Of a stretch of DNA of 42,030 nt, positions 2,248 to 30,805 are shown piece by piece (within the stretch, counting starts at the first letter, position 1; each line of letters begins with the position of its first letter). The notes beneath the pieces are model-generated. The model was not told where the DNA came from. It did not search any database and worked only from the letters and a program-made list of their open reading frames with translations. The position numbers and the translations under genes are program-made. Source of the stretch: a virus. Location of the stretch: positions 1-42,030 of IMG/VR virus record IMGVR_UViG_3300024348_000097. One strand, 5' to 3'.

Positions 2248-5200
2248 TTATTTTCCCCCTATGTCTGTGAGTTTTTCATAGTCCTCTTTGTTTATGAGAC
2301 CTTTTTGCTTCATTTGCTCAAGTATATTTCTTTGACGGTTCTTAAAGTCTTTTTCATAATTTACATTGGCTGCTGTTCTCGCCTTCGCATAAAGATTAAA
2401 GAAGTTCTCGATTGTCTGCTGGGCCATAAATAAATTACCATCTCTAATATAACTCTGTGTAGTTCCAATAACACCTTTTTCAACAGCGTTGTCAACATCT
2501 TGCATTGCGTAAAACTTAAGTTCGCCTCTCTTTTTTAATTCTTCACGATATGTTTCCATAGGTAAAGAATAAGTAGCACTATACTTCTGTCTTATTTCAT
2601 TCATGCCTTGTTGTTTTCTAGTGTCTCCAGTAGAGAAGACGAATTCATTTTTCTTTTGATCCGCAATCAAAGACATCAAATCCATTTTTTCTCCTTCGAA
2701 TTCGTATATGAATTCTGAACCCGTCATTTCTGTATATGCCAAAGCCAAATTAACCATAGTAATATGGATGCTCATTGAACGTCTATATAACTCTTTTTGC
2801 TTTTCGACTTGTGTAGGAGTCAAAGTAAAACCACCTTTGTAAGTTCTAGATGCAAATGGGTTAATCATAGTTTCCAAATAGGCCATTGCGGTTCCAGGCT
2901 CAGATGTAGTTGTTCTATACTGCATATCCTCACCAAATGGTCCAATCGCTGCTTCATAGTACTGATTTTTAGCCAAGAATGATACGTTACGATTTAACTT
3001 CTGTACAACATTGGCGAAAATTTTACCGATAGTCCTAGGCATCAATCCATATACACCTTCATTCATGCTTGGTTCATATTCAGGATGCAATTGGCTAAGA
3101 CTTTGAATTGACTCTGCATTGCCCTTACTGATGACAGATAGAATAGACGGAGAAAATACAGAAAGTGATGCGGCTGCTGTGCCTGAGGCCCAATTCGTAA
3201 ATTTAGCACCTTTTTCATCTGTAAAAGCCGAATAAATTCTTGAAAATCCTTGCATCATTGGAAGCTGCTTTGCCCCACTAGTCAACAACTCGCCAAATAA
3301 AAGACCACCCATACCATAACTAATTCCTTTTAGTTTACTGCCAGTCGTAGTCATTTCTTCATTATATGCTCTATAGGCAGAACTATATGCACCCAAAGCA
3401 TAACCACTGATACCCATGTTATTAAAGGCATTTATTTTATCGCCTTTTAAAACCGCACCGCCTCTACGGATTGCAAAATTGTCTAAAGGTTTGCCGCTCA
3501 AAAGTGCCTTGAGATATTCCTCATGAAGAGTTCTATTATAATTACCAGCCCTCAAATTTGCGGCAGGATATAATTTGTCCTTATCGTCCCCTGGCTCAGA
3601 AGAAGCAATTATAGCCCCGGCAAGAACAGCACTCAAAGCAAATGCAGCAACTCCAAAAGATACCTCAATTTGAGCAAAATCATATGTTACTTGACGCTTT
3701 AACTTGGTCAGTTCCATCTTAGCCTCTTCATAGGCTTTTTTCTGAGAATCTGAAGCAAATTTCTTTACTGCTTTAGGGTATCTCTTATCGAATTCTTTTT
3801 GTTTCTTATCGTATGTTCTCTGAGACCCATAGTATATCGCTAAAGCAGCAGGAGGAAAACTCTTTTGAGTTGCTACATATATCACGTTTGCAGGAACTTT
3901 TGCAAAAGGAGCAACACTCCAAACAAGAACATCGGCACTTTGCAAAGCGCCTAGAGTAGCTCTTTTGCCAAATTCTATTTCATTACTTGTCTTTATTGTT
4001 TTATAATTAGCTTTAATATTCTTACGAATTTTTCCTCTAACTGCACTAAGTCCTTTTGATAAGAAGTTATCTCCTAAGAATACTTTTTTCAAACCTTCTT
4101 GTTCAAATGGATTATCAGCCTCAAGGCCATAATCAACTACAGATAATAATTTCTTCAGAGTATTTCTATCAAGAGCAAGGTCTCTATCTGCCATATAATC
4201 CTCAATAAAACCACCCGTAGCACCGCTTGTAGCCGTGTTTTTGAAATAGTCAATCATTGCTCTAGTGGTATAGGCATTGGCAAATGCTTTATCGCCACCC
4301 AAAGCCATCAAACGACCAGTGATTTCTGTGGCTTGTGGAGCAAGCGTCCAACCCCAAAATAAACTAGTTAATAGTTTATATGTCTTACCATCAGCAAGTT
4401 CCAAACTACCATCTTTAGTTTTATATATTACTTGATTAAACGCATCGGCATATTCCTCATCCGTCATCTGCCATAACTTTTTACCATTGATTTTGCCCAA
4501 GATTGACCCCATCATTTTATAACCCAAATGGGTATCCTTAAAGAAGTTAATTTGAGCCAACCCATCGTAGAATTTTTCAATATAATTAGGATCGCTCTGA
4601 AAACCATATTGTAACATCTCGGCCATCTCACCTAGAGTTTTATCCCTAGACAATGTTGCTGCGTTCCACCAATTTCTAATACTAAATGTATCTGATTTAA
4701 CACCGCCTAATCCTGCATCATATGCTTTTCTTGTTGCAGCTACAATTATATTTTGGTTAAACATAGCATTTTCTACGTTTGCAAGTACAGAAAGACCAAC
4801 AGTTTGAATACCCAACAAAGCACGGCTACCACCAGAAGTAAGTCTATCATTCCAAAACTTAGGTTTAAAATTATCCAAGAAGTTCATCATTTCTCTAGCA
4901 GCATTTTTTACTTGCTTTTCTACTTTCTTTGCCTCGGCATAATCCTCATCTGAAAAACTATCCATAAATTTATCGGCAGCCGCATCTAAATTATCTTTTG
5001 ATGTATTTAACTCCGATACTAATCTTTCTAAATTCTCTTTTTGTTTTGGAGTCAATTGGATTCCATCACGCTCTAGGCTTTTTGCAATCATGTCACCCAT
5101 CTTTTTAGGGAATAGGTTTCTTCCTAATTGCAACATAAAACCAGCATTTGATAAAAGCGCACTGAAGGTCACTAGACCATCTCTAAGCCCTTCTTGGGTA

Positions 5201-8200
5201 GTTACCCCCTCCAACTCCTTACGCATCGCTACAGCGGCCTCTGCCATGCCTTTTTCTTCAAATGCATCAGCATATGCCTCAACCATAGAAACAGCATCTA
5301 CGAAATCCATACCTGCTCTCTGCCAAGTTTCGTATAAATCCTCTGCTACCTTCTTCTTTTTGATTGTACGAGTATCGGTTGTTAGCTCCTCAAGATAATC
5401 ATCGCTAAAATTCTCTGACTCAATCGCATTTTTTATTGTTTGGCGATAATCTACTCCAAAGGCATCTTGGTATTCTTGAGCAGTTCCAATATCCATATTG
5501 TACATGGTTCTGAATATCTCGTAATGACTAAAGCCTTGAGACAATAAACCAGCAACTTGATCTGCCATAGGCATCATATAGTTGGCATTGATTAAATTCT
5601 CAATCTCAACAGCAGTATCTTTTTTGCTATTGTTTAGTTTTTCAATGCTTTCTAAAGCCAAAGCAGCGTGTGCTTCTTTGTATTTAGCCTCGTCTACATA
5701 TGGCAATCCCAATTGGTCTTTGATATCGCCCAATAAATAACCTTCTTTTACTATATTTTTAAGAGCTTCTGCCTCAGTAAGACCTGACATAATATCAGAT
5801 TGGAAAGCAGGACTAATATCAGTAGGATTCAATTGAGACTTATTTGTAATTTCTGCTTTCTTAGTAATGATTACACCAGCTGCACCAAAGGAGTTGTCCT
5901 TAGTTACATTTGCTTTATCGCCTAATAAAGATTGAACGTAATCAACTAACTCGTTTCCGTCAAATCCTTTTTGGAATACTTCTACATTTTCGCCTTTTTG
6001 TTTACGGGTGATTATAAGACTCTTTTCTTCTGCTCCAGGAATGGCATTCTTAGCACCATTTACATCGCCTGACCATTTACGGGTACTGATTACTGCCTTA
6101 CCATCAACATTTAATTTCTCAAAGATATCTGTAACGATAGCATCACGGATGTCCTTTGGTACTACGTTTAATACATTCAATGATACAATACCATCGTACT
6201 TCTTATTGATTTGATCTGAGGCCGTATATGTAGCCTCCTCCTTACCTTTCCATCTTTCTGGATTAGGTTCGTAAGAATCAACCTTGCGACCCAAAGTATT
6301 TGACATTGCATCTGTTCCGAGACCCAAACCTGCACCATAATCCAAAACATCACCTTGAATATTTTTAATTAAATTAGCCGCTTTTTTATATGATCCAATT
6401 GTTGTTGCAACTTGAGTTGTACCACTAGATTCCTCAGAACGAACCTTTTGGGATTTGTTTATTGTTTCATCAATTTTTTTAGCTCTTTCGATAATATCAG
6501 AAACTTGACCTTTTCTAGTCCTAGGATACAAAGACAATGCTGCTGATGCTTGCACGGGTATCTCTGCTCCACCTTTTTTATCAGAAGCAACGAATCGTGC
6601 CTCTGGGAACATTTCATTTACATAGTATTTACCATTCAACACAAAAGCATCACTTCCGTAAAATTTAGAATTGAATTGTTTATGTTGATATGTTCCTTTT
6701 TTGCTCTTATCTATAAAATCTTGTTTTTCAAGATTAGGGTCAACAAAGAAACCTGTCATTGTAAAACCACTATCTTCCAATCTCTTTCCGGGCGTTTCTC
6801 CTTGGAGATTGTTCATAATATTTTGGTCTACATACTTACCATAAAAACTTTCTTGACCAAAACCTTTTTCTTTCAAATAATTTCTTAATTGATTTGCTGG
6901 TTGACTACTATTTGCTTTGCCTGTACCAACAAAGAATTTTTCAAAAAATGCTCTTCTTGCATCAAAGCCAAATCGCTTATTATTTTCAGATATAATAGCT
7001 TGACTTGTACCTGCAGGAAGACCTCTTTTCTTTTCTGTAATTAGTATGTTTGTAATTTTATCTATTGACTGAGGCTTTGTAAAATCTGTATTTCTAATAA
7101 TGCTAATTAATTCTGCAAAAGCATCGTTATACTTTCTACCATACTCATTATTGGTTCTGAAATCATTAATGAATTCTACTAATTCATTTTTAGCCTTGGT
7201 GGTTTCATAATTTCTATCCTTGCTAATAGCCTTTAGAACATTTCCAAAATAAGTAGCCGCATAAGCATTGCCAAAAGTAGCAGCTGGTGCTTGAACCATT
7301 ACAAAAACAGCAACGGGATTGCCAGCCATTTCAGGATTTTGTGCATCACGTAATCGGGCTGCTTCTTGAGCCGATTCCCAAATCGATGGTATTTTAGCAT
7401 CGTCACTAGCGGCAAAACCAACATTATCAGCTATGTTCTGATTTATAAAACTATAACCAATACCCCCTTGGAGAATTTGACCATCTACAACTTTACCAAT
7501 TCCTGTACCATCTGAATTTGCTACAAGTATTGCTCCTCCGCTTGTAGAAACAACATCATACATTGATTTTCTTTCTTCTGGAACTTGCAATGTAATACCA
7601 GAGTTTGGATCTACTTCCCAAGAAATATCAACGGGCTGAAATACTTTAGCAAGTTCTGATTTATTCTTTATTTCTTCGGGATTCACATAACCACTTAACA
7701 AAATATCTCCTACTTCTCTTTCTCCATTGTTTTCATTAACAACTTGAACTTGCGCATTTTCAATTTTTGTTTCAGTTGGTTGTGGTACACCACTTACTTC
7801 TTCTTTTTGACCTTCTTTGGGAGTGACTTGAGGTTTTGCTTGGGGTTTTCCTTCGACCACTTCTTCGCCAACTCTGGCTTCTGGCTGTACAGAAACTTCA
7901 TTTGTGCTTTGCTTTTGAACGGCATTTGTTTCTAATTTTTTATTTACTTGACCTGACTTAATAGAATCGGACAAAGCGTTAAAGAAGTCACTTACTTCAA
8001 CAACATCCGCAGTATTCTTAAATGGAGTAATAGTACCAAATGTAACGGTAGATACAAATTTATTGATGAGTGTAGCAATTTTTTGCAATAAGGTCGGGTC
8101 TAATTTAGTACCTTGTGCTGCCATCATTGCTGTCAATTGAACTAGATATTCCTCTCCTTGTTCTACTTGCTTGTACTTGTTAACAAAGTCAGTCAGTACT

Positions 8201-11200
8201 TTATTGTCTGAGTCCGAAACTAAAGCAGACAAACTATTTTTGAAATCAGCAAATAGTTCTACATCTTGTCCAAATACTTTTAACAAAATAGCGTGAGTAA
8301 CTTCGTGAGCAACTGTGGTATCCTTTGCTGTATCAAGGTTTACTTGAATTTCAGCACCATATGTACCATCAGAATACCTTACTGAAGTTTGATTACCAAT
8401 TGATCTATCACTTCCACCAATTTCAGCCATCTTCGCCATATATGAATCATTGGTATGGAGAAAAATTCTAACACCTGGCAAAAGTTTATCTAGTACCTTT
8501 TGAGCATTTTTAGTTTGTTGAACAATGTTATCTACTTCTACTTGATTACGAGTGCTAGATGCCATCAATTGATTCAAATCATATTGATTATCAGCAGTTG
8601 CCGCATTTAAATTATCACCCGTATCATAAAATTTAACTTGCTTACTGCCTTTTTTACTAGCAGTATCCTTGGTCATTTCTTGTACGGTTGCATTGATATC
8701 AGTATCTTTGGTATTAACCTTGATTAAACCTGTCTCAATGGCTTCTTTATTTGTTTCGATGATTTGTGCTGCTTTCTGTTTGTCAGTTACATACTTAAAA
8801 CCACCTTTGTTTTCAAATACAACAAAGTCCACATCTTTACCGGACACAAGGTCTTTCATTGTGGTCTTAATTCCTTCAATTTTATTTTGAATAAATTCTC
8901 TAAGCACATTGCCTTCGGGAATCTGTTCTAAACTACTCTCTAACTCTTTCTGTTGGCCCATCAAGTCAACATAATACTTACTCTTGTTATCGTCTTTAAT
9001 TACGCTCTTGGCCCCAGGGTAAGTAGCTGCAATATCTACTACTCCTTGTTTTACTGTTTGGAACTCTTCCATAGTAATCTGACCCGTCTGTAATAAATAT
9101 TCTGGAATGGCTGTTGCCGCATTTGGACCTACTACATCGATAGCACTTGCAATCATTTGATCCAAACCTCTTTGTCCTGTAAATTCTTTAAAACTAGCAA
9201 GTCTCTTTTCTCTCTGAACAGATTCGTATCGTGAACTTACTACTCCTGCACCAGACATAACTGCAACACTAGGCAAAATTTCTAAAGCCAAAGTAGGCCC
9301 CTCTGCTTTTGCGTATTCAATAAAGGTCGCATTCTTGTATTTTGGATCATTATTTAGTTTAGCAGCAGTGTAATTTTGAACAAGTTCTGTTGCCAATTCA
9401 GGAGCATATTCCACACCAGCTAGTGTAATCACATCTTGAATTACTGCCTTAGCACTAATTCCTCTTGCTGTTTTTAAAACACCACTAACAAAAGGAGCAA
9501 ATTGAACTGCATATAAAGGCAACATCGCTGATTGTACTTGAAGCGTTACCTTTGCTGAATTTCTTGCTTCTATTTCTGAGCCCGTTTCTGCAAATTTATC
9601 TTTATAGTTTTGACCTACTTGATCAGCAGTATCTTGAGCCCAAGAAATCATACCACCGATATAAGGGTTTTGTGTAAGAACACCAACAGAAATACCCAAA
9701 GCCAAGTTAGGAGTCTGATCTAAAATACTAGAAAGCGCTGCTTCTGTAGACTCAGCAAAACCATTAGCACCTGCAAAAGTAAGATTTGACTTCTTATTAT
9801 TTACCTCTACAAACTTCATATACTTAAGCATTCCAGTAAGAGGATTATTTTCATATCCTACTGTTGCATTAAGAGCCTCAATTGCATTATCAAAGGTTCT
9901 AGCAGATGCAGCTTGAATTCTGTCTCCAGACCACTCTAAAAGAGCACCTACCTTAAAATCAGAATCAGATATTCTATTTGCTAAACTTTGATTTGTGCGT
10001 CTTTGATTTTCTCTGCCGTCCATAAACTCAGTATATGCATCTTTCTGCATCTGAGTTAATTTTTCCATTGCGGCAAAACTTATCTTTCCATCCTTTACAG
10101 TTGCATCATATTTAGCATACAATTTCTGCAATTCAAGATTTTTAGTTTTTTCTACTTCAGATTTCTTTAATTTGAAATTCTGTTCTGCTGTACTAACTAA
10201 TTTATTTCTAAGTTCTACTCCTTCAGATGTTGCTTGTGAGACCATTCTCGCATAAATCTCAGCATCAGCCAAGGCTTCTTCTTCAGACATATATTCGCCT
10301 TTTTCTTGACGACTTTTAATCTCATTTGCAAAACCATCTAATTCAATTTGTTTTTGATTAGTAAAATTACTTAGTTGGTTAGTGATATTTTCAACGCTTG
10401 AATTTTGTAGATCTTGTAAAGATGTAAAACCATAATTAGCCAAGTTGCGAACTTCTGATTCAAACTCTTGAGGAATTTTAGTATAATCAAATACTGATTT
10501 GCCTTCCTTTGCTAATTTAGCATCAAATACTTTTTTCTGACCTTCGCTAATCAAACGATTTTCTGATTCTTGTTCTACAAGTCTAGTCAAACGTCTAGTT
10601 ACGGCTGGTTTAATTTCTTCGGGAACTCCGCTCATTGAACTACGAACAAATTTCTCAACTTGATCTGCTACCTTCAAAGGATTAACTTCTACAATACCAT
10701 CATCATTCGTAAACAAAAATCCTCCAGGATTGGGGTTATTTGCAGTTGGCTGAATCCACACACCATCTGTAATTAAATTTTTAGCATCTTTAGATAACTC
10801 TCCGTCTAATTTCTGATTGGCAATTTGTTCTTCTTCGGGTGTTTTAACAGGTGTATTTTGAAATTCACTATAAGACGAAAATACCTTTGCTCTTTCATCT
10901 TTGGGAAGAGTTGTAGCCTTTAATATACTTGGAACCTTAGGCTGGACTTTTAAACTTTCTGGAGTAAAACCTGTAGCACTTGTAATAACGATTCCAGATT
11001 CTTTTAGTGATTTTTGTACATCTACTTTATCAAAAAGACCTTTGCTTTTAGTATAAATATTTTTGCCAAAAGAATCACTTATTTCTTTGATTTGATTATT
11101 AAAATAGCCTTTATCCTTAAGTTCTTTGTATTTCGGATCAACACCGAGTCTTTGAAAATCTTGCAAAGCACGAAAAGAACCTTTGTCAATTTCACTCTTA

Positions 11201-11643
11201 TACTGATTGAGTTTTTGTGAATATAAATCAACCATCTCCTTGTCCTTTGGATTGACAGCAGGAGCCTTTATAGGCGGTGCTATATTAGACTGGAAGGATT
11301 TACCATACATAGGTACTTCAGGCATTACATCGCTGTAAACACCGGCCATAGAAATACCTTGAGCCTCAGCTCCTTCCGGACTTACAACTTGATTGTCTTG
11401 CGGAACTCCCACCTCTGGGGTAGGCTCATTCCCAGCCAATTGCAAATTCGATAAAGAATCGCTTTCTTCTTTTTTTTTTAAGTATGATGTTGCATCCTCA
11501 ACACCATAATGGATTTTCATATCCTCATTTGCATCGGGAGATTTTGCCAAATAGTCTTCAAAATCCTTTTTGGTTGTAAAAGAGTTATTAAATCTGTAAT
11601 CAGATTTTAACTCATCGTAGAGTTCTTCGAAATTATTGGCCAT
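2248..11643 (-). CDS. Giant polyvalent virion protein (3131 aa) with zincin and methyltransferase domains
   Basis: This protein takes up 22% of the window. Visible parts in order: a short N-terminal domain (FEELYDELKSDYRF); long coiled-coil-like Lys/Glu segments (about residues 100-520); a hydrophobic region near 640-800 (LALGISVGVLTQNPYIGG); a HEVTH zinc-metallopeptidase motif (HExxH) near residue 1111; Pro/Glu linkers near 1250-1300; a large globular region near 1330-1720; a class I SAM methyltransferase-like domain near 1750-1930, with glycine motif DYGAGLGLG and acidic SYEPNP; then long helical and hydrophobic segments to the end. This matches the polyvalent proteins described for phages and conjugative elements, which carry several enzyme domains into the host with the DNA. 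It lies downstream of two internal-virion-like genes, where T7-like phages encode their internal core. Exact activities are inferred. Confidence 0.85.
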   Translation of the reverse strand: MANNFEELYDELKSDYRFNNSFTTKKDFEDYLAKSPDANEDMKIHYGVEDATSYLKKKEESDSLSNLQLAGNEPTPEVGVPQDNQVVSPEGAEAQGISMAGVYSDVMPEVPMYGKSFQSNIAPPIKAPAVNPKDKEMVDLYSQKLNQYKSEIDKGSFRALQDFQRLGVDPKYKELKDKGYFNNQIKEISDSFGKNIYTKSKGLFDKVDVQKSLKESGIVITSATGFTPESLKVQPKVPSILKATTLPKDERAKVFSSYSEFQNTPVKTPEEEQIANQKLDGELSKDAKNLITDGVWIQPTANNPNPGGFLFTNDDGIVEVNPLKVADQVEKFVRSSMSGVPEEIKPAVTRRLTRLVEQESENRLISEGQKKVFDAKLAKEGKSVFDYTKIPQEFESEVRNLANYGFTSLQDLQNSSVENITNQLSNFTNQKQIELDGFANEIKSRQEKGEYMSEEEALADAEIYARMVSQATSEGVELRNKLVSTAEQNFKLKKSEVEKTKNLELQKLYAKYDATVKDGKISFAAMEKLTQMQKDAYTEFMDGRENQRRTNQSLANRISDSDFKVGALLEWSGDRIQAASARTFDNAIEALNATVGYENNPLTGMLKYMKFVEVNNKKSNLTFAGANGFAESTEAALSSILDQTPNLALGISVGVLTQNPYIGGMISWAQDTADQVGQNYKDKFAETGSEIEARNSAKVTLQVQSAMLPLYAVQFAPFVSGVLKTARGISAKAVIQDVITLAGVEYAPELATELVQNYTAAKLNNDPKYKNATFIEYAKAEGPTLALEILPSVAVMSGAGVVSSRYESVQREKRLASFKEFTGQRGLDQMIASAIDVVGPNAATAIPEYLLQTGQITMEEFQTVKQGVVDIAATYPGAKSVIKDDNKSKYYVDLMGQQKELESSLEQIPEGNVLREFIQNKIEGIKTTMKDLVSGKDVDFVVFENKGGFKYVTDKQKAAQIIETNKEAIETGLIKVNTKDTDINATVQEMTKDTASKKGSKQVKFYDTGDNLNAATADNQYDLNQLMASSTRNQVEVDNIVQQTKNAQKVLDKLLPGVRIFLHTNDSYMAKMAEIGGSDRSIGNQTSVRYSDGTYGAEIQVNLDTAKDTTVAHEVTHAILLKVFGQDVELFADFKNSLSALVSDSDNKVLTDFVNKYKQVEQGEEYLVQLTAMMAAQGTKLDPTLLQKIATLINKFVSTVTFGTITPFKNTADVVEVSDFFNALSDSIKSGQVNKKLETNAVQKQSTNEVSVQPEARVGEEVVEGKPQAKPQVTPKEGQKEEVSGVPQPTETKIENAQVQVVNENNGEREVGDILLSGYVNPEEIKNKSELAKVFQPVDISWEVDPNSGITLQVPEERKSMYDVVSTSGGAILVANSDGTGIGKVVDGQILQGGIGYSFINQNIADNVGFAASDDAKIPSIWESAQEAARLRDAQNPEMAGNPVAVFVMVQAPAATFGNAYAATYFGNVLKAISKDRNYETTKAKNELVEFINDFRTNNEYGRKYNDAFAELISIIRNTDFTKPQSIDKITNILITEKKRGLPAGTSQAIISENNKRFGFDARRAFFEKFFVGTGKANSSQPANQLRNYLKEKGFGQESFYGKYVDQNIMNNLQGETPGKRLEDSGFTMTGFFVDPNLEKQDFIDKSKKGTYQHKQFNSKFYGSDAFVLNGKYYVNEMFPEARFVASDKKGGAEIPVQASAALSLYPRTRKGQVSDIIERAKKIDETINKSQKVRSEESSGTTQVATTIGSYKKAANLIKNIQGDVLDYGAGLGLGTDAMSNTLGRKVDSYEPNPERWKGKEEATYTASDQINKKYDGIVSLNVLNVVPKDIRDAIVTDIFEKLNVDGKAVISTRKWSGDVNGAKNAIPGAEEKSLIITRKQKGENVEVFQKGFDGNELVDYVQSLLGDKANVTKDNSFGAAGVIITKKAEITNKSQLNPTDISPAFQSDIMSGLTEAEALKNIVKEGYLLGDIKDQLGLPYVDEAKYKEAHAALALESIEKLNNSKKDTAVEIENLINANYMMPMADQVAGLLSQGFSHYEIFRTMYNMDIGTAQEYQDAFGVDYRQTIKNAIESENFSDDYLEELTTDTRTIKKKKVAEDLYETWQRAGMDFVDAVSMVEAYADAFEEKGMAEAAVAMRKELEGVTTQEGLRDGLVTFSALLSNAGFMLQLGRNLFPKKMGDMIAKSLERDGIQLTPKQKENLERLVSELNTSKDNLDAAADKFMDSFSDEDYAEAKKVEKQVKNAAREMMNFLDNFKPKFWNDRLTSGGSRALLGIQTVGLSVLANVENAMFNQNIIVAATRKAYDAGLGGVKSDTFSIRNWWNAATLSRDKTLGEMAEMLQYGFQSDPNYIEKFYDGLAQINFFKDTHLGYKMMGSILGKINGKKLWQMTDEEYADAFNQVIYKTKDGSLELADGKTYKLLTSLFWGWTLAPQATEITGRLMALGGDKAFANAYTTRAMIDYFKNTATSGATGGFIEDYMADRDLALDRNTLKKLLSVVDYGLEADNPFEQEGLKKVFLGDNFLSKGLSAVRGKIRKNIKANYKTIKTSNEIEFGKRATLGALQSADVLVWSVAPFAKVPANVIYVATQKSFPPAALAIYYGSQRTYDKKQKEFDKRYPKAVKKFASDSQKKAYEEAKMELTKLKRQVTYDFAQIEVSFGVAAFALSAVLAGAIIASSEPGDDKDKLYPAANLRAGNYNRTLHEEYLKALLSGKPLDNFAIRRGGAVLKGDKINAFNNMGISGYALGAYSSAYRAYNEEMTTTGSKLKGISYGMGGLLFGELLTSGAKQLPMMQGFSRIYSAFTDEKGAKFTNWASGTAAASLSVFSPSILSVISKGNAESIQSLSQLHPEYEPSMNEGVYGLMPRTIGKIFANVVQKLNRNVSFLAKNQYYEAAIGPFGEDMQYRTTTSEPGTAMAYLETMINPFASRTYKGGFTLTPTQVEKQKELYRRSMSIHITMVNLALAYTEMTGSEFIYEFEGEKMDLMSLIADQKKNEFVFSTGDTRKQQGMNEIRQKYSATYSLPMETYREELKKRGELKFYAMQDVDNAVEKGVIGTTQSYIRDGNLFMAQQTIENFFNLYAKARTAANVNYEKDFKNRQRNILEQMKQKGLINKEDYEKLTDIGGK

Positions 11644-28404: not shown

Positions 28405-28643
28405 TGCCACGTGGTGTAAATAATACAAAATTGGCCGAGAAAATTGGAACTAAAGTTGAACCTGCTCATATGAAACATTATGGGCAGGAACAAAAGGCTA
28501 TAATTCGGCAGTCTTCGTTAAAAAGTGCCGTTTCTTTGGTTGAGTCCATTGTTCCAAGATTGCAAGTCGATTTCACGGTTACAGATATTCGTAACCTTAC
28601 TTTGGAAACTGCTGAGTTGTTCGAAGAATGGGTCTTGAGATAA
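28404..28643 (+). CDS. Small unknown protein between SSB and exonuclease (79 aa)
   Basis: Its basic, polar N-terminus (MPRGVNNTKLAEKIGTKVEP) is followed by two helices (SLKSAVSLVESIVPRL; LTLETAELFEEWVLR). Translation is coupled on both sides: it starts in the TGATG at the SSB stop, and the exonuclease start lies 16 bp inside its end. No family is recognised. Position in the recombination operon suggests an accessory to the SSB or nuclease. Confidence 0.55.
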   Translation: MPRGVNNTKLAEKIGTKVEPAHMKHYGQEQKAIIRQSSLKSAVSLVESIVPRLQVDFTVTDIRNLTLETAELFEEWVLR

Positions 28644-29611
28644 TTCAAATCAATAAGGATAAGAGCTACGATGAATGGATTCAGTTCCGTACTCGTGGGC
28701 TTGGGGCCTCAGAGATTGGTACTCTTATGGGTGTCAACTCTTGGAAATCTCCTGCTGAATTATACTATCAGAAGATAGGATTGATTCCACAGAAGACAGA
28801 ACAAAACATTCCTATGTTCATGGGAACTATCTTGGAAAAGACTGTTGCTGAGATATTTGAGTATTGGGATGGTGATGACGAAAGTATGCTAAGGAACTAT
28901 GAAAGCCAAACTAAAGTACGTACTTTGTACGAGCCGGTTGGGTATGTGGTTAATCCACAATATCCTCATCTTTTTTTCTCGCCTGACAGATTACAAATCA
29001 AATCAAAAAACTTAAGAATAAGAGATGGTAGAATTAACTTGGAAAATGTGGAAGCTGTTATTGAGATTAAAACGATTAGTGGATGGAGTAGCAAGCAGTG
29101 GGAGGGCGGTATTCCACCGTCTTATTACTTGCAGCTGCAAACCTACTTAATGGGTCTCGGAATTGATACTGGCTACTTAGTCGCTCTAGAAGATGGAAGA
29201 AACTTAAAGGTTCACAAATTCGATAGGGATCAAGAAATGATAGATATGATTGGTAGAGTAACAGCAGACTTCTGGTCATGTGTAGAAGCAGGTCGCCTTG
29301 CTTTAGAACTAGGAGAGGACTACGAGCAATATGCTCCACCGCCAGATGGCACGGAAGCCTACTCGGAGTTTTTAAATAAGAAGTTCGCCAATCCTGAAGA
29401 TAACACGATTGTGTCTACACCAGAGATAGATGAGTGTATACTCCAGTACAAGGTGAAGAACTCAGAGATGTCTATTCTAGATGACGAGAAGAGGGAAGCA
29501 GCTAATTTCATTAAGAACTATATGGGTAACAATACGACTATACAATCCGAGGAAGGTAAAGTAACTTGGAGACCCAATGCTAAAGGAACTAGAATTTTCA
29601 GAGTTGGATGA
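28628..29611 (+). CDS. YqaJ-type viral recombinase exonuclease (lambda-exo fold)
   Basis: This 327-aa protein has the family signature at the start: WIQFRTRGLGASEIGTLMGV, then NSWKSPAELYYQKIG. The PD-(D/E)xK nuclease core follows: GTILEKTVAEIFEYW (acidic helix), FFSPDRL (Asp) and AVIEIKT (E-x-K), followed by the Gln-rich helix QWEGGIPPSYYLQLQTYLMG. Such nucleases digest one strand of duplex ends for phage recombination, working with an SSB or annealing protein. A dispersed TGGGTCTCGGA motif copy lies inside the gene at 29151. The next gene begins in the ATGA at its stop. Confidence 0.9.
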   Translation: MGLEIIQINKDKSYDEWIQFRTRGLGASEIGTLMGVNSWKSPAELYYQKIGLIPQKTEQNIPMFMGTILEKTVAEIFEYWDGDDESMLRNYESQTKVRTLYEPVGYVVNPQYPHLFFSPDRLQIKSKNLRIRDGRINLENVEAVIEIKTISGWSSKQWEGGIPPSYYLQLQTYLMGLGIDTGYLVALEDGRNLKVHKFDRDQEMIDMIGRVTADFWSCVEAGRLALELGEDYEQYAPPPDGTEAYSEFLNKKFANPEDNTIVSTPEIDECILQYKVKNSEMSILDDEKREAANFIKNYMGNNTTIQSEEGKVTWRPNAKGTRIFRVG

Positions 29612-29892
29612 AAACAAAGGATATCGAATGGTATCGGGCTATGTGGGAGTCACGTCCACACAAATGCCAGGAGTGTGGTATACATCTACAACACTTCAGT
29701 CCGATGTACATCTCGCATATCATAACAAAAGGAAGTTATCCGAGTCTGAGGAATCATCCCGAAAACTTTATGATCTATTGTTCGCAATGTCATCAGTTAT
29801 GGGAATTTGGGACTCGGACGAAGATGAAGACTTATGATGAGGCTATGGAGATAATGGATAGACTAAAAAGAGAGTATCATGAATCACGGTAG
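29608..29892 (+). CDS. HNH endonuclease (94 aa)
   Basis: The zinc-finger-like frame is complete: CQEC (about residue 20), ISHII (the first H of HNH), HPENF with Asn, then YCSQCHQLWE (second CxxC and final His). Small HNH proteins nick or cut DNA; in phages they help packaging, act as mobile endonucleases or pair with methylases. Here the gene overlaps the methyltransferase gene by 14 bp and starts in the ATGA of the exonuclease stop, so a restriction-like or protective partnership with the methylase is possible but not shown. Confidence 0.8.
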   Translation: MKTKDIEWYRAMWESRPHKCQECGIHLQHFSPMYISHIITKGSYPSLRNHPENFMIYCSQCHQLWEFGTRTKMKTYDEAMEIMDRLKREYHESR

Positions 29893-30805
29893 TTTATTTA
29901 GTGGAATAGGTGGATTTGATTTAGCAGCCGAGTGGATGGGGTGGGACAATAAGTTCCATTGCGACATCAACCCCTTTAGTAGAAAATTATGTAGTTTTTA
30001 TTGGCCCAAGGCCGAAAGTTATGACAATATCAAGACAACTGACTTTACAATTTGGCGAGGAAGAATCGATGTCCTCTCCGGTGGTTTTCCATGTCAACCA
30101 TTTTCCCACGCTGGAAAAAGGATGGGAAAAGAAGATGAACGCCATCTTTGGCCTGAGATGCTCCGGGCAATCAGAGAGATTAGACCCAAATATGTCGTGG
30201 GGGAGAATGTTCGTGGAATCCTTAGTTGGTCGGACGGATTGGTTCTCGAAGAGGTGTACGCTGACTTGGAAGGCGAGGGTTACGAAATCCAAACGATTGT
30301 ACTTCCAGCTGTCGGCATCAATGCACCACACAGAAGGGACAGAGTCTGGATTATTGCTAAAGACACCAGCAGCGATGGATGCCTACTCGGAGGGACTATC
30401 GAAGAAGCAGCAGGTATTCGGGAACTCTGGAACACTAGCTCAAGAGGTGGCAACGGGGTTCATATACAAGAGGGGTTTATTACCGACCCCGAACGCTTGC
30501 GATTGGAACTCGGCCAAGATGCCACAGACTTACATCGCCTCAGTTCTCAGACACAAGGAGAAAGGAGTCAATCAGCAGTTAACATTACGCCAGATGACAA
30601 TGTTCATTCCGAACAAGGTGGACCATCCGAAATTTGGAACGGCTTCCCAATTAAATCCCCACTTTGTAGCGGAGATGATGGGCTTCCCACTGAATTGGAC
30701 GGACTTGCCCTTCCTAAGTGGAGAAAAGAAAGTATAATGGGCTATGGCAATGCCATTGTTCCTCAAATTGCTTATCGTATATTTGCAACTATAGATAAAA
30801 TATGA
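29879..30805 (+). CDS. C5-cytosine DNA methyltransferase (Dcm-type)
   Basis: All main motifs of the family are present in order: motif I SLFSGIGGFDLAAEWMGW; motif IV GGFPCQPFS with the catalytic Cys72; motif VI VGENVRGI; motif VIII INAPHRRDRVWIIA; motif X GYGNAIVPQ near the C-terminus, after KWRKESI. It transfers a methyl group from SAM to cytosine C5. The segment between motifs VIII and X (about residues 165-265), normally the target recognition domain, is unusually low in familiar pattern (Ser/Gly/Glu-rich), and exactly there another frame reads a conserved-looking protein. It is coupled to the HNH gene upstream and, by ATGA, to the GroES-like gene downstream. Confidence 0.93.
   Translation: MNHGSLFSGIGGFDLAAEWMGWDNKFHCDINPFSRKLCSFYWPKAESYDNIKTTDFTIWRGRIDVLSGGFPCQPFSHAGKRMGKEDERHLWPEMLRAIREIRPKYVVGENVRGILSWSDGLVLEEVYADLEGEGYEIQTIVLPAVGINAPHRRDRVWIIAKDTSSDGCLLGGTIEEAAGIRELWNTSSRGGNGVHIQEGFITDPERLRLELGQDATDLHRLSSQTQGERSQSAVNITPDDNVHSEQGGPSEIWNGFPIKSPLCSGDDGLPTELDGLALPKWRKESIMGYGNAIVPQIAYRIFATIDKI
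30021..30737 (+). CDS. Nested +1-frame gene inside the methyltransferase gene (238 aa)
   Basis: The ORF lies wholly within the methyltransferase gene, shifted +1, and runs 238 codons without a stop. Its product has a pattern I recognise from phage proteins found with C5-methylases: DWFSKRCTLTWKARVTKSKR, LYFQLSASMHHTEGTESGLL, LLPTPNACDWNSAK with GVNQQLTLRQM, and at the end QLNPHFVAEMMGFPLNWTDL. The W-x-S-x-x-C-x-L-T-W-K, PTP-x-x-x-D and LNP-x-F-V-x-E-M-M-G-F-P blocks are hard to explain as by-products of another frame. Function is unknown; a partner or specificity factor of the methylase is a guess. The start could also be an internal ATG at 30069. Whether it is translated, and how, cannot be seen. 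Confidence 0.6.
   Translation: MTISRQLTLQFGEEESMSSPVVFHVNHFPTLEKGWEKKMNAIFGLRCSGQSERLDPNMSWGRMFVESLVGRTDWFSKRCTLTWKARVTKSKRLYFQLSASMHHTEGTESGLLLKTPAAMDAYSEGLSKKQQVFGNSGTLAQEVATGFIYKRGLLPTPNACDWNSAKMPQTYIASVLRHKEKGVNQQLTLRQMTMFIPNKVDHPKFGTASQLNPHFVAEMMGFPLNWTDLPFLSGEKKV

Follow-up and report, generated by a model that had tools for sequence, protein, structure and literature searches.

A predicted C5-cytosine methyltransferase gene (alpha) in the virus DNA studied here contains a second gene (beta), wholly nested in its +1 frame, and it is highly probable that alpha and beta are the two subunits of one C5-cytosine DNA methyltransferase, with beta, the second of these, encoded over alpha in the overlapping frame. 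Conserved dual coding, a distribution of methylase motifs over the two products, exchange of modules and one-chain relatives with a matching order of parts were observed. Alpha would supply the AdoMet-binding and catalytic large domain (motifs I to VIII) and motif X. Beta, with translation presumably starting at its own internal ATG (30021), would supply an N-terminal part with a hairpin possibly docking on alpha, a row of exchangeable modules that probably read the target, of which this phage has two, as well as motif IX. By analogy with M.EcoHK31I, alpha and beta would come together as a single enzyme that methylates the DNA of the phage, and the simplest role of such methylation would be to shield this DNA from host restriction.

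Coordinates and context of the nested gene pair

The DNA studied was a 42-kb IMG/VR virus record, and the window denotes this whole stretch of 42,030 nucleotides. The portal and virion structural genes lie on one strand, and genes for a RecE-like exonuclease, an HNH protein and the methylase lie on the opposite strand. The largest ORF of the window is 2248-11643 (- strand), a single frame of 3131 aa. The gene pair is located as follows.

29879-30805, + strand: alpha, predicted C5-cytosine methyltransferase catalytic subunit, 308 aa, with motifs I to VIII and X
30021-30737, + strand: beta, nested +1-frame gene with an ATG start, 238 aa, putative subunit with target-recognition domain (TRD) and motif IX
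30021-30023, + strand: ATG start of beta, formed with the help of the third, synonymous position of a Tyr codon in alpha

The original prediction, a 238-codon ORF in the +1 frame inside the methylase gene, was exact in its coordinates, and the sequence blocks quoted for it were present. The position of the beta ATG was identical across all close relatives, and at one locus (L022) it had moved along with the frame. Upstream, an HNH-type protein of 94 aa is encoded at 29608-29892, so that its end lies inside the start of alpha, and in the close virus lineage this gene and a RecE/YqaJ-like exonuclease gene (28628-29611) are kept adjoining alpha. The HNH gene was rejected as a partner or cognate nuclease, as it was absent beside most of the distant alpha/beta loci checked.

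Alpha as the predicted catalytic half

Alpha matched PF00145 (E 2.8e-38) over model positions 2-164 only and phrog_363 (3.8e-65). M.HhaI was matched both by sequence (2.7e-17) and by fold in Foldseek (6e-15), and the sequence alignment to Pfam DNA_methylase and M.HhaI ended at motif VIII. Three parts of alpha are relevant here.

30080-30106, + strand: alpha motif IV, GGFPCQPFS, with the codon of the catalytic Cys72 at 30092-30094, assigned by sequence
30380-30676, + strand: alpha residues 168-266, opposite the modules of beta, predicted to be unstructured, pLDDT below 50 throughout
30746-30766, + strand: alpha motif X, GNAIVPQ, directly after the beta stop and at the alpha C terminus, with G290, N291 and P295 invariant

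Residues P71, C72 and Q73 and E109-N110-V111 were invariant in the alpha alignment (A3) and represent core motifs with PCQ and ENV. The structural model of alpha was confident through motif VIII and at motif X, with helices at residues 279-290 and 295-307, and the unstructured stretch is the place where a TRD would be expected. The core motifs I to VIII, motif X and the M.HhaI fold of the model indicated that alpha is a C5-cytosine methyltransferase, and alignment and model both pointed to an enzyme that is without a TRD and motif IX.

Modules and a motif-IX-like segment in beta

Beta matched phrog_1008 (E 9.8e-19) over residues 20-229, which is most of the protein, and hence represents a protein family; no accepted Pfam or NCBIfam model matched it. 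The following parts were distinguished in beta.

30255-30323, + strand: beta residues 79-101 (CTLTWK...YFQLS), predicted beta hairpin overlapping the alpha motif VII-VIII region
30357-30479, + strand: beta module A (LKTPAAMD...), 41 aa, exchangeable, putative target-recognition module
30480-30647, + strand: beta module B (LPTPNACDW...), 56 aa, extending to motif IX, exchangeable, putative target-recognition module
30651-30698, + strand: beta motif-IX-like segment LNPHFVAEMMGFPLNW, pattern LNPxFVxxMMGFPxxW, near the end of beta

Residues 81-100 of the hairpin had a pLDDT of about 82-85; W83 was invariant and L81 and L97 were nearly so. Our guess is that this hairpin docks on alpha. Between the hairpin and motif IX, betas held about 1 to 6 modules according to a simple count of the pattern 'LPTPxAxD'. 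The close group contained seven module types in nine arrangements, namely, A-B (the window), A-C-B, A-D-B, E-B, A-D-C-B, E-F-B, A-G-D-C-B, A-F-C-B and E-F-D-B. Module insertions left both frames open, the one exception being an alpha stop in L022 that lies outside the modules. Comparison of these sequences indicated that modules are gained, lost and swapped among relatives and that the window has tandem exchangeable modules (A-B) between motifs VIII and IX. As they resemble the TRDs arranged in tandem in multispecific enzymes of Bacillus phages, the modules probably set specificity.

In the motif-IX-like segment, P213, V216, M220, G221, P223 and W226 were invariant across 61 betas. Alignment of beta by hhalign with the one-chain enzymes of mycobacteriophages Starcevich, MilanaBonita and Philonius gave values of 97% and E 9.8e-11; the sole alignment with canonical monomers fell on motif IX and was non-significant. 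An AlphaFold model of beta alone had a mean pLDDT of 55.6, and a Foldseek search of the PDB with this model detected no match (best E 2). Sequence searches of the PDB gave no match for beta itself, for either of two beta profiles or for the last 36 residues. The poor fold of beta alone, the absence of a structural match and the non-significant similarity to canonical motif IX count against the two-subunit reading.

One-chain and partly split relatives

The three mycobacteriophage enzymes carry motifs I to VIII, LPTP modules, the motif-IX-like segment and motif X in one chain, and the module type of beta A and B occupies the TRD position. The phrog_363 match of Starcevich gp69 ran along the protein and its phrog_1008 match covered residues 203-366, and the single chain of MilanaBonita has five LPTP modules. 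In Zimmer (gp81/gp80), MadKillah (gp6/gp5) and Jumbo, the enzyme is split after motif VIII, and the modules, the segment and motif X are found in an overlapping +1 ORF. As the same modules and segment lie between motifs VIII and X in the mycobacteriophage single chains, beta is most likely the subunit with the TRD and motif IX, and it is through these relatives that its segment is linked to motif IX. The +1 frame over motifs IV to VIII in Starcevich (L289:1595-2131) and Philonius (L297:1820-2335) still encodes a beta-like N-terminal half, which is unannotated and contains at least one LPTP module; that of Starcevich matched phrog_1008 (2e-14).

The methylase specificity region had been proposed to be tied to a separate second protein. 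This proposal requires revision, since the putative TRD modules and the motif-IX-like segment belong to beta itself and alpha is predicted to be unstructured there; judged by sequence, the second protein is most likely the missing half of the methylase.

Distribution of beta

A tblastn search with beta matched 65 phage records, and the beta match was the +1 frame of a C5-methylase gene in all eight records examined, one of which (L007) had a frameshifted alpha N terminus. The expectation that the nested protein is conserved itself, with relatives inside phage C5-methylase genes, was thus borne out by both the phrog_1008 and the tblastn matches. Many more beta loci were obtained in scans of IMG/VR and GTDB contigs, the bacterial ones mainly from Bacteroidota and Firmicutes. 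Among the matches listed, which were found mainly through beta, beta was in the +1 frame of alpha at 205 of 207 loci, the exceptions being an N-gap (L136) and an alpha frameshift (L045). An interpretation of L136 as alpha and beta in a single frame was rejected as an N-gap artifact. In a search based on alpha, all 79 new loci among the matches listed kept beta in the +1 frame (with a match to part of beta only in L285 and L286), and no homologous methylase with a broken +1 frame was found among them. The two sets of loci overlap, with some contigs recurring, and the counts are to be read as "at least" among the matches listed and not as a census. Neither search detected a beta without an alpha gene or alpha remains among the loci listed.

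Alpha was interrupted and beta was open at four loci. The alpha stop sits in the variable region in L167, L168 and L174 and in motif IV in L022. These stops may be due to decay, sequencing error or a split alpha.

Dual-coding tests

Of 20,000 synonymous-codon shuffles of the window alpha, which preserved its protein and codon use, a fraction of 1e-4 left the +1 frame without a stop, the mean being 6.1 stops. The same shuffle on 60 diverse loci, including the window's own copy (L009), almost never left the frame open. Identity between the window beta and its homologues exceeded the frame-shadow expectation, derived from synonymous reshuffles, with z values of 1.7 to 16 in 25 pairs (z ≥ 2.6 in 24 of these), and hence the homology of beta goes beyond what a frame shadow would produce. 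The lowest value, 1.7, was that of a distant pair with L180 and is near shadow. At the beta start, the ratio of xAT to xAC in alpha was 88:10 versus 2205:1505 elsewhere, an odds ratio of 6.

The location of constraint was examined in the close group. All omega values are naive, each frame being treated as if alone, and kinship of the sequences inflates the P values for dual coding. The single-coded flanks of alpha varied mainly at alpha position 3, with an apparent omega of 0.06-0.09. Alpha dominated over beta residues 1-100 (apparent omega of 0.23 for alpha and 0.91 for beta), and beta dominated over residues 101-238 (0.19 for beta and 1.3 for alpha), where the third, unused frame had an apparent omega of 1.67. 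Within residues 101-238, variation was highest at alpha position 1, corresponding to position 3 of beta (chi-square versus flanks, P = 1.8e-7). The constraint flips between frames along the overlap, and therefore the two proteins largely alternate along the gene. The substitution patterns indicated that alpha opposite the beta modules evolves as if merely kept open, before motif X, and that beta residues 1-100 are weakly constrained in the close group. A dual-coding pair had been predicted, and the shuffle, shadow, omega and start-codon tests agreed with this; the case for dual coding is exceptionally clear and extends over many loci. The constraint expected on both frames at the 3' end was unequal, with the beta frame dominating.

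Alternative explanations

Beta could be an independent protein, such as a regulator, an inhibitor or an unrelated anti-host factor, whose gene just happens to overlap that of the methylase. A separate polypeptide is predicted, with its own start and without an accepted Pfam or NCBIfam model, as such a protein would have. However, in Starcevich, MilanaBonita and Philonius the C-terminal half of beta forms part of the methylase itself, beta was always accompanied by alpha or its remains among the loci listed, and beta has exactly what alpha is without; this explanation is therefore improbable. Production of one enzyme by a ribosomal frameshift from alpha into the +1 frame, with no start of beta's own, was judged to be very improbable. 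Such a shift would be possible 5' of the ATG because the beta frame is open there for 32 codons (270 codons in total), and many loci have no strong Shine-Dalgarno sequence before the ATG, but the ATG is kept through synonymous choice in alpha and is identical in all close relatives. Furthermore, a single chain with motifs I to VIII, IX and X would need two shifts, as motif X is in the alpha frame.

There is hardly any likelihood that the +1 frame is open by chance or as a shadow of the amino acid and codon composition of alpha. The omega near 1 of beta residues 1-100 and the L180 pair would accord with a shadow, but all four dual-coding tests contradict it, whole modules are inserted with both frames open, and the one-chain enzymes carry the same sequences in the methylase frame. 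For the preferred reading of beta as a methyltransferase subunit, further adverse points are the placement of the TRD in M.EcoHK31I (PMC3404938), the omega of beta residues 1-100 and the four loci with an interrupted alpha and an intact beta.

Comparison with known systems

To our knowledge, fully nested, deeply conserved dual-coding genes have seldom been documented in DNA phages and bacteria. M.EcoHK31I (YGGCCR) shares with the window a beta gene that lies within alpha in a different frame; the alpha of M.EcoHK31I is about 309 aa, and that enzyme needs both chains for activity. M.EaeI is similar to M.EcoHK31I. The larger chain of M.EcoHK31I contains motifs I to VIII and X and the smaller chain motif IX, and the predicted TRD was assigned to the large subunit (PMC3404938). 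Likewise, the window alpha appears to have motifs I to VIII and X without IX (PF00145 positions 2-164 only, residues 168-266 unstructured). For the motif-IX-like segment of beta, similarity to motif IX is strong via the one-chain relatives and non-significant versus canonical enzymes. The comparison with M.EcoHK31I is one of described motif layout. In contrast to M.EcoHK31I, the putative TRD modules of the window are in beta, and no restriction enzyme was recognized here, whereas M.EcoHK31I is part of a restriction-modification system. The layout was already known from this one studied bacterial enzyme; what is new is how broad the family is and that its modules occur in shuffled arrays.

The pair also resembles the M.AquI-type split into two chains cut after motif VIII, an appearance shared by Zimmer, MadKillah and Jumbo with their overlapping +1 ORF, but M.AquI-type enzymes have motifs IX and X in the small chain, whereas the window keeps motif X in alpha and has the whole of beta nested. 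The C5-methyltransferases of Bacillus phages SPR, SPbeta, phi3T, rho11 and H2 have several tandem recognition domains between the catalytic motifs and motif IX (PMC8936443). Beta resembles these in its tandem modules before motif IX; the Bacillus phage enzymes differ in being single chains with TRDs that look unrelated, and multiple specificity of the window enzyme is putative.

An identical nested layout, with both genes annotated and the arrangement unexplained, is present in Shelly (gp55/gp56, 'g55 internal gene'), K1ind3 (methylase/'Mte8-like') and PhiXhv-5, and many other records annotate one frame only (e.g., Lc-Nu, BS-TP4 and N15). Descriptions of nested methylase pairs in phages were looked for in the open-access literature and none turned up, which argues only weakly that none exist. 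As many records annotate one frame and Pfam and NCBIfam are without the beta half, specificity predicted from alpha alone would miss the likely determinant. We see about an even chance that these loci form a large phage-borne class of C5-methyltransferases with specificity in an overprinted frame, in which beta holds interchangeable target-recognition modules arrayed as cassettes, targets are gained or swapped by modules open in two frames, and many alpha-only annotations are half-annotated, possibly multispecific enzymes. The alpha/beta pair has hundreds of viral and bacterial homologues and a clear division of labor between frames, its relatives with a single chain or a partial split are relevant to how an enzyme can be divided and one part then written over its own gene, and the module arrays are testable parts for methylation specificity.

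Several further loci had unusual features. A longer beta (L260:2640-3490) has a frame that continues beyond the alpha stop (3280). Inside the methylase gene of Klebsiella phage BUCT711 lies a divergent +1 ORF (L294:1349-2044) that is unannotated and matched the beta profile with E 4e-14. The +1 ORF (L292:1577-2059) of a canonical single-chain methylase from a streptococcal phage, an enzyme that includes a motif IX itself, weakly matched the N-terminal half of beta (E 5e-5), and an ORF resembling it occurs in L293. Within about 1 kb downstream of alpha/beta, two Bacteroides phages and phage C72C1 (L002, L003 and L005) have genes resembling phosphoadenosine phosphosulfate reductase.
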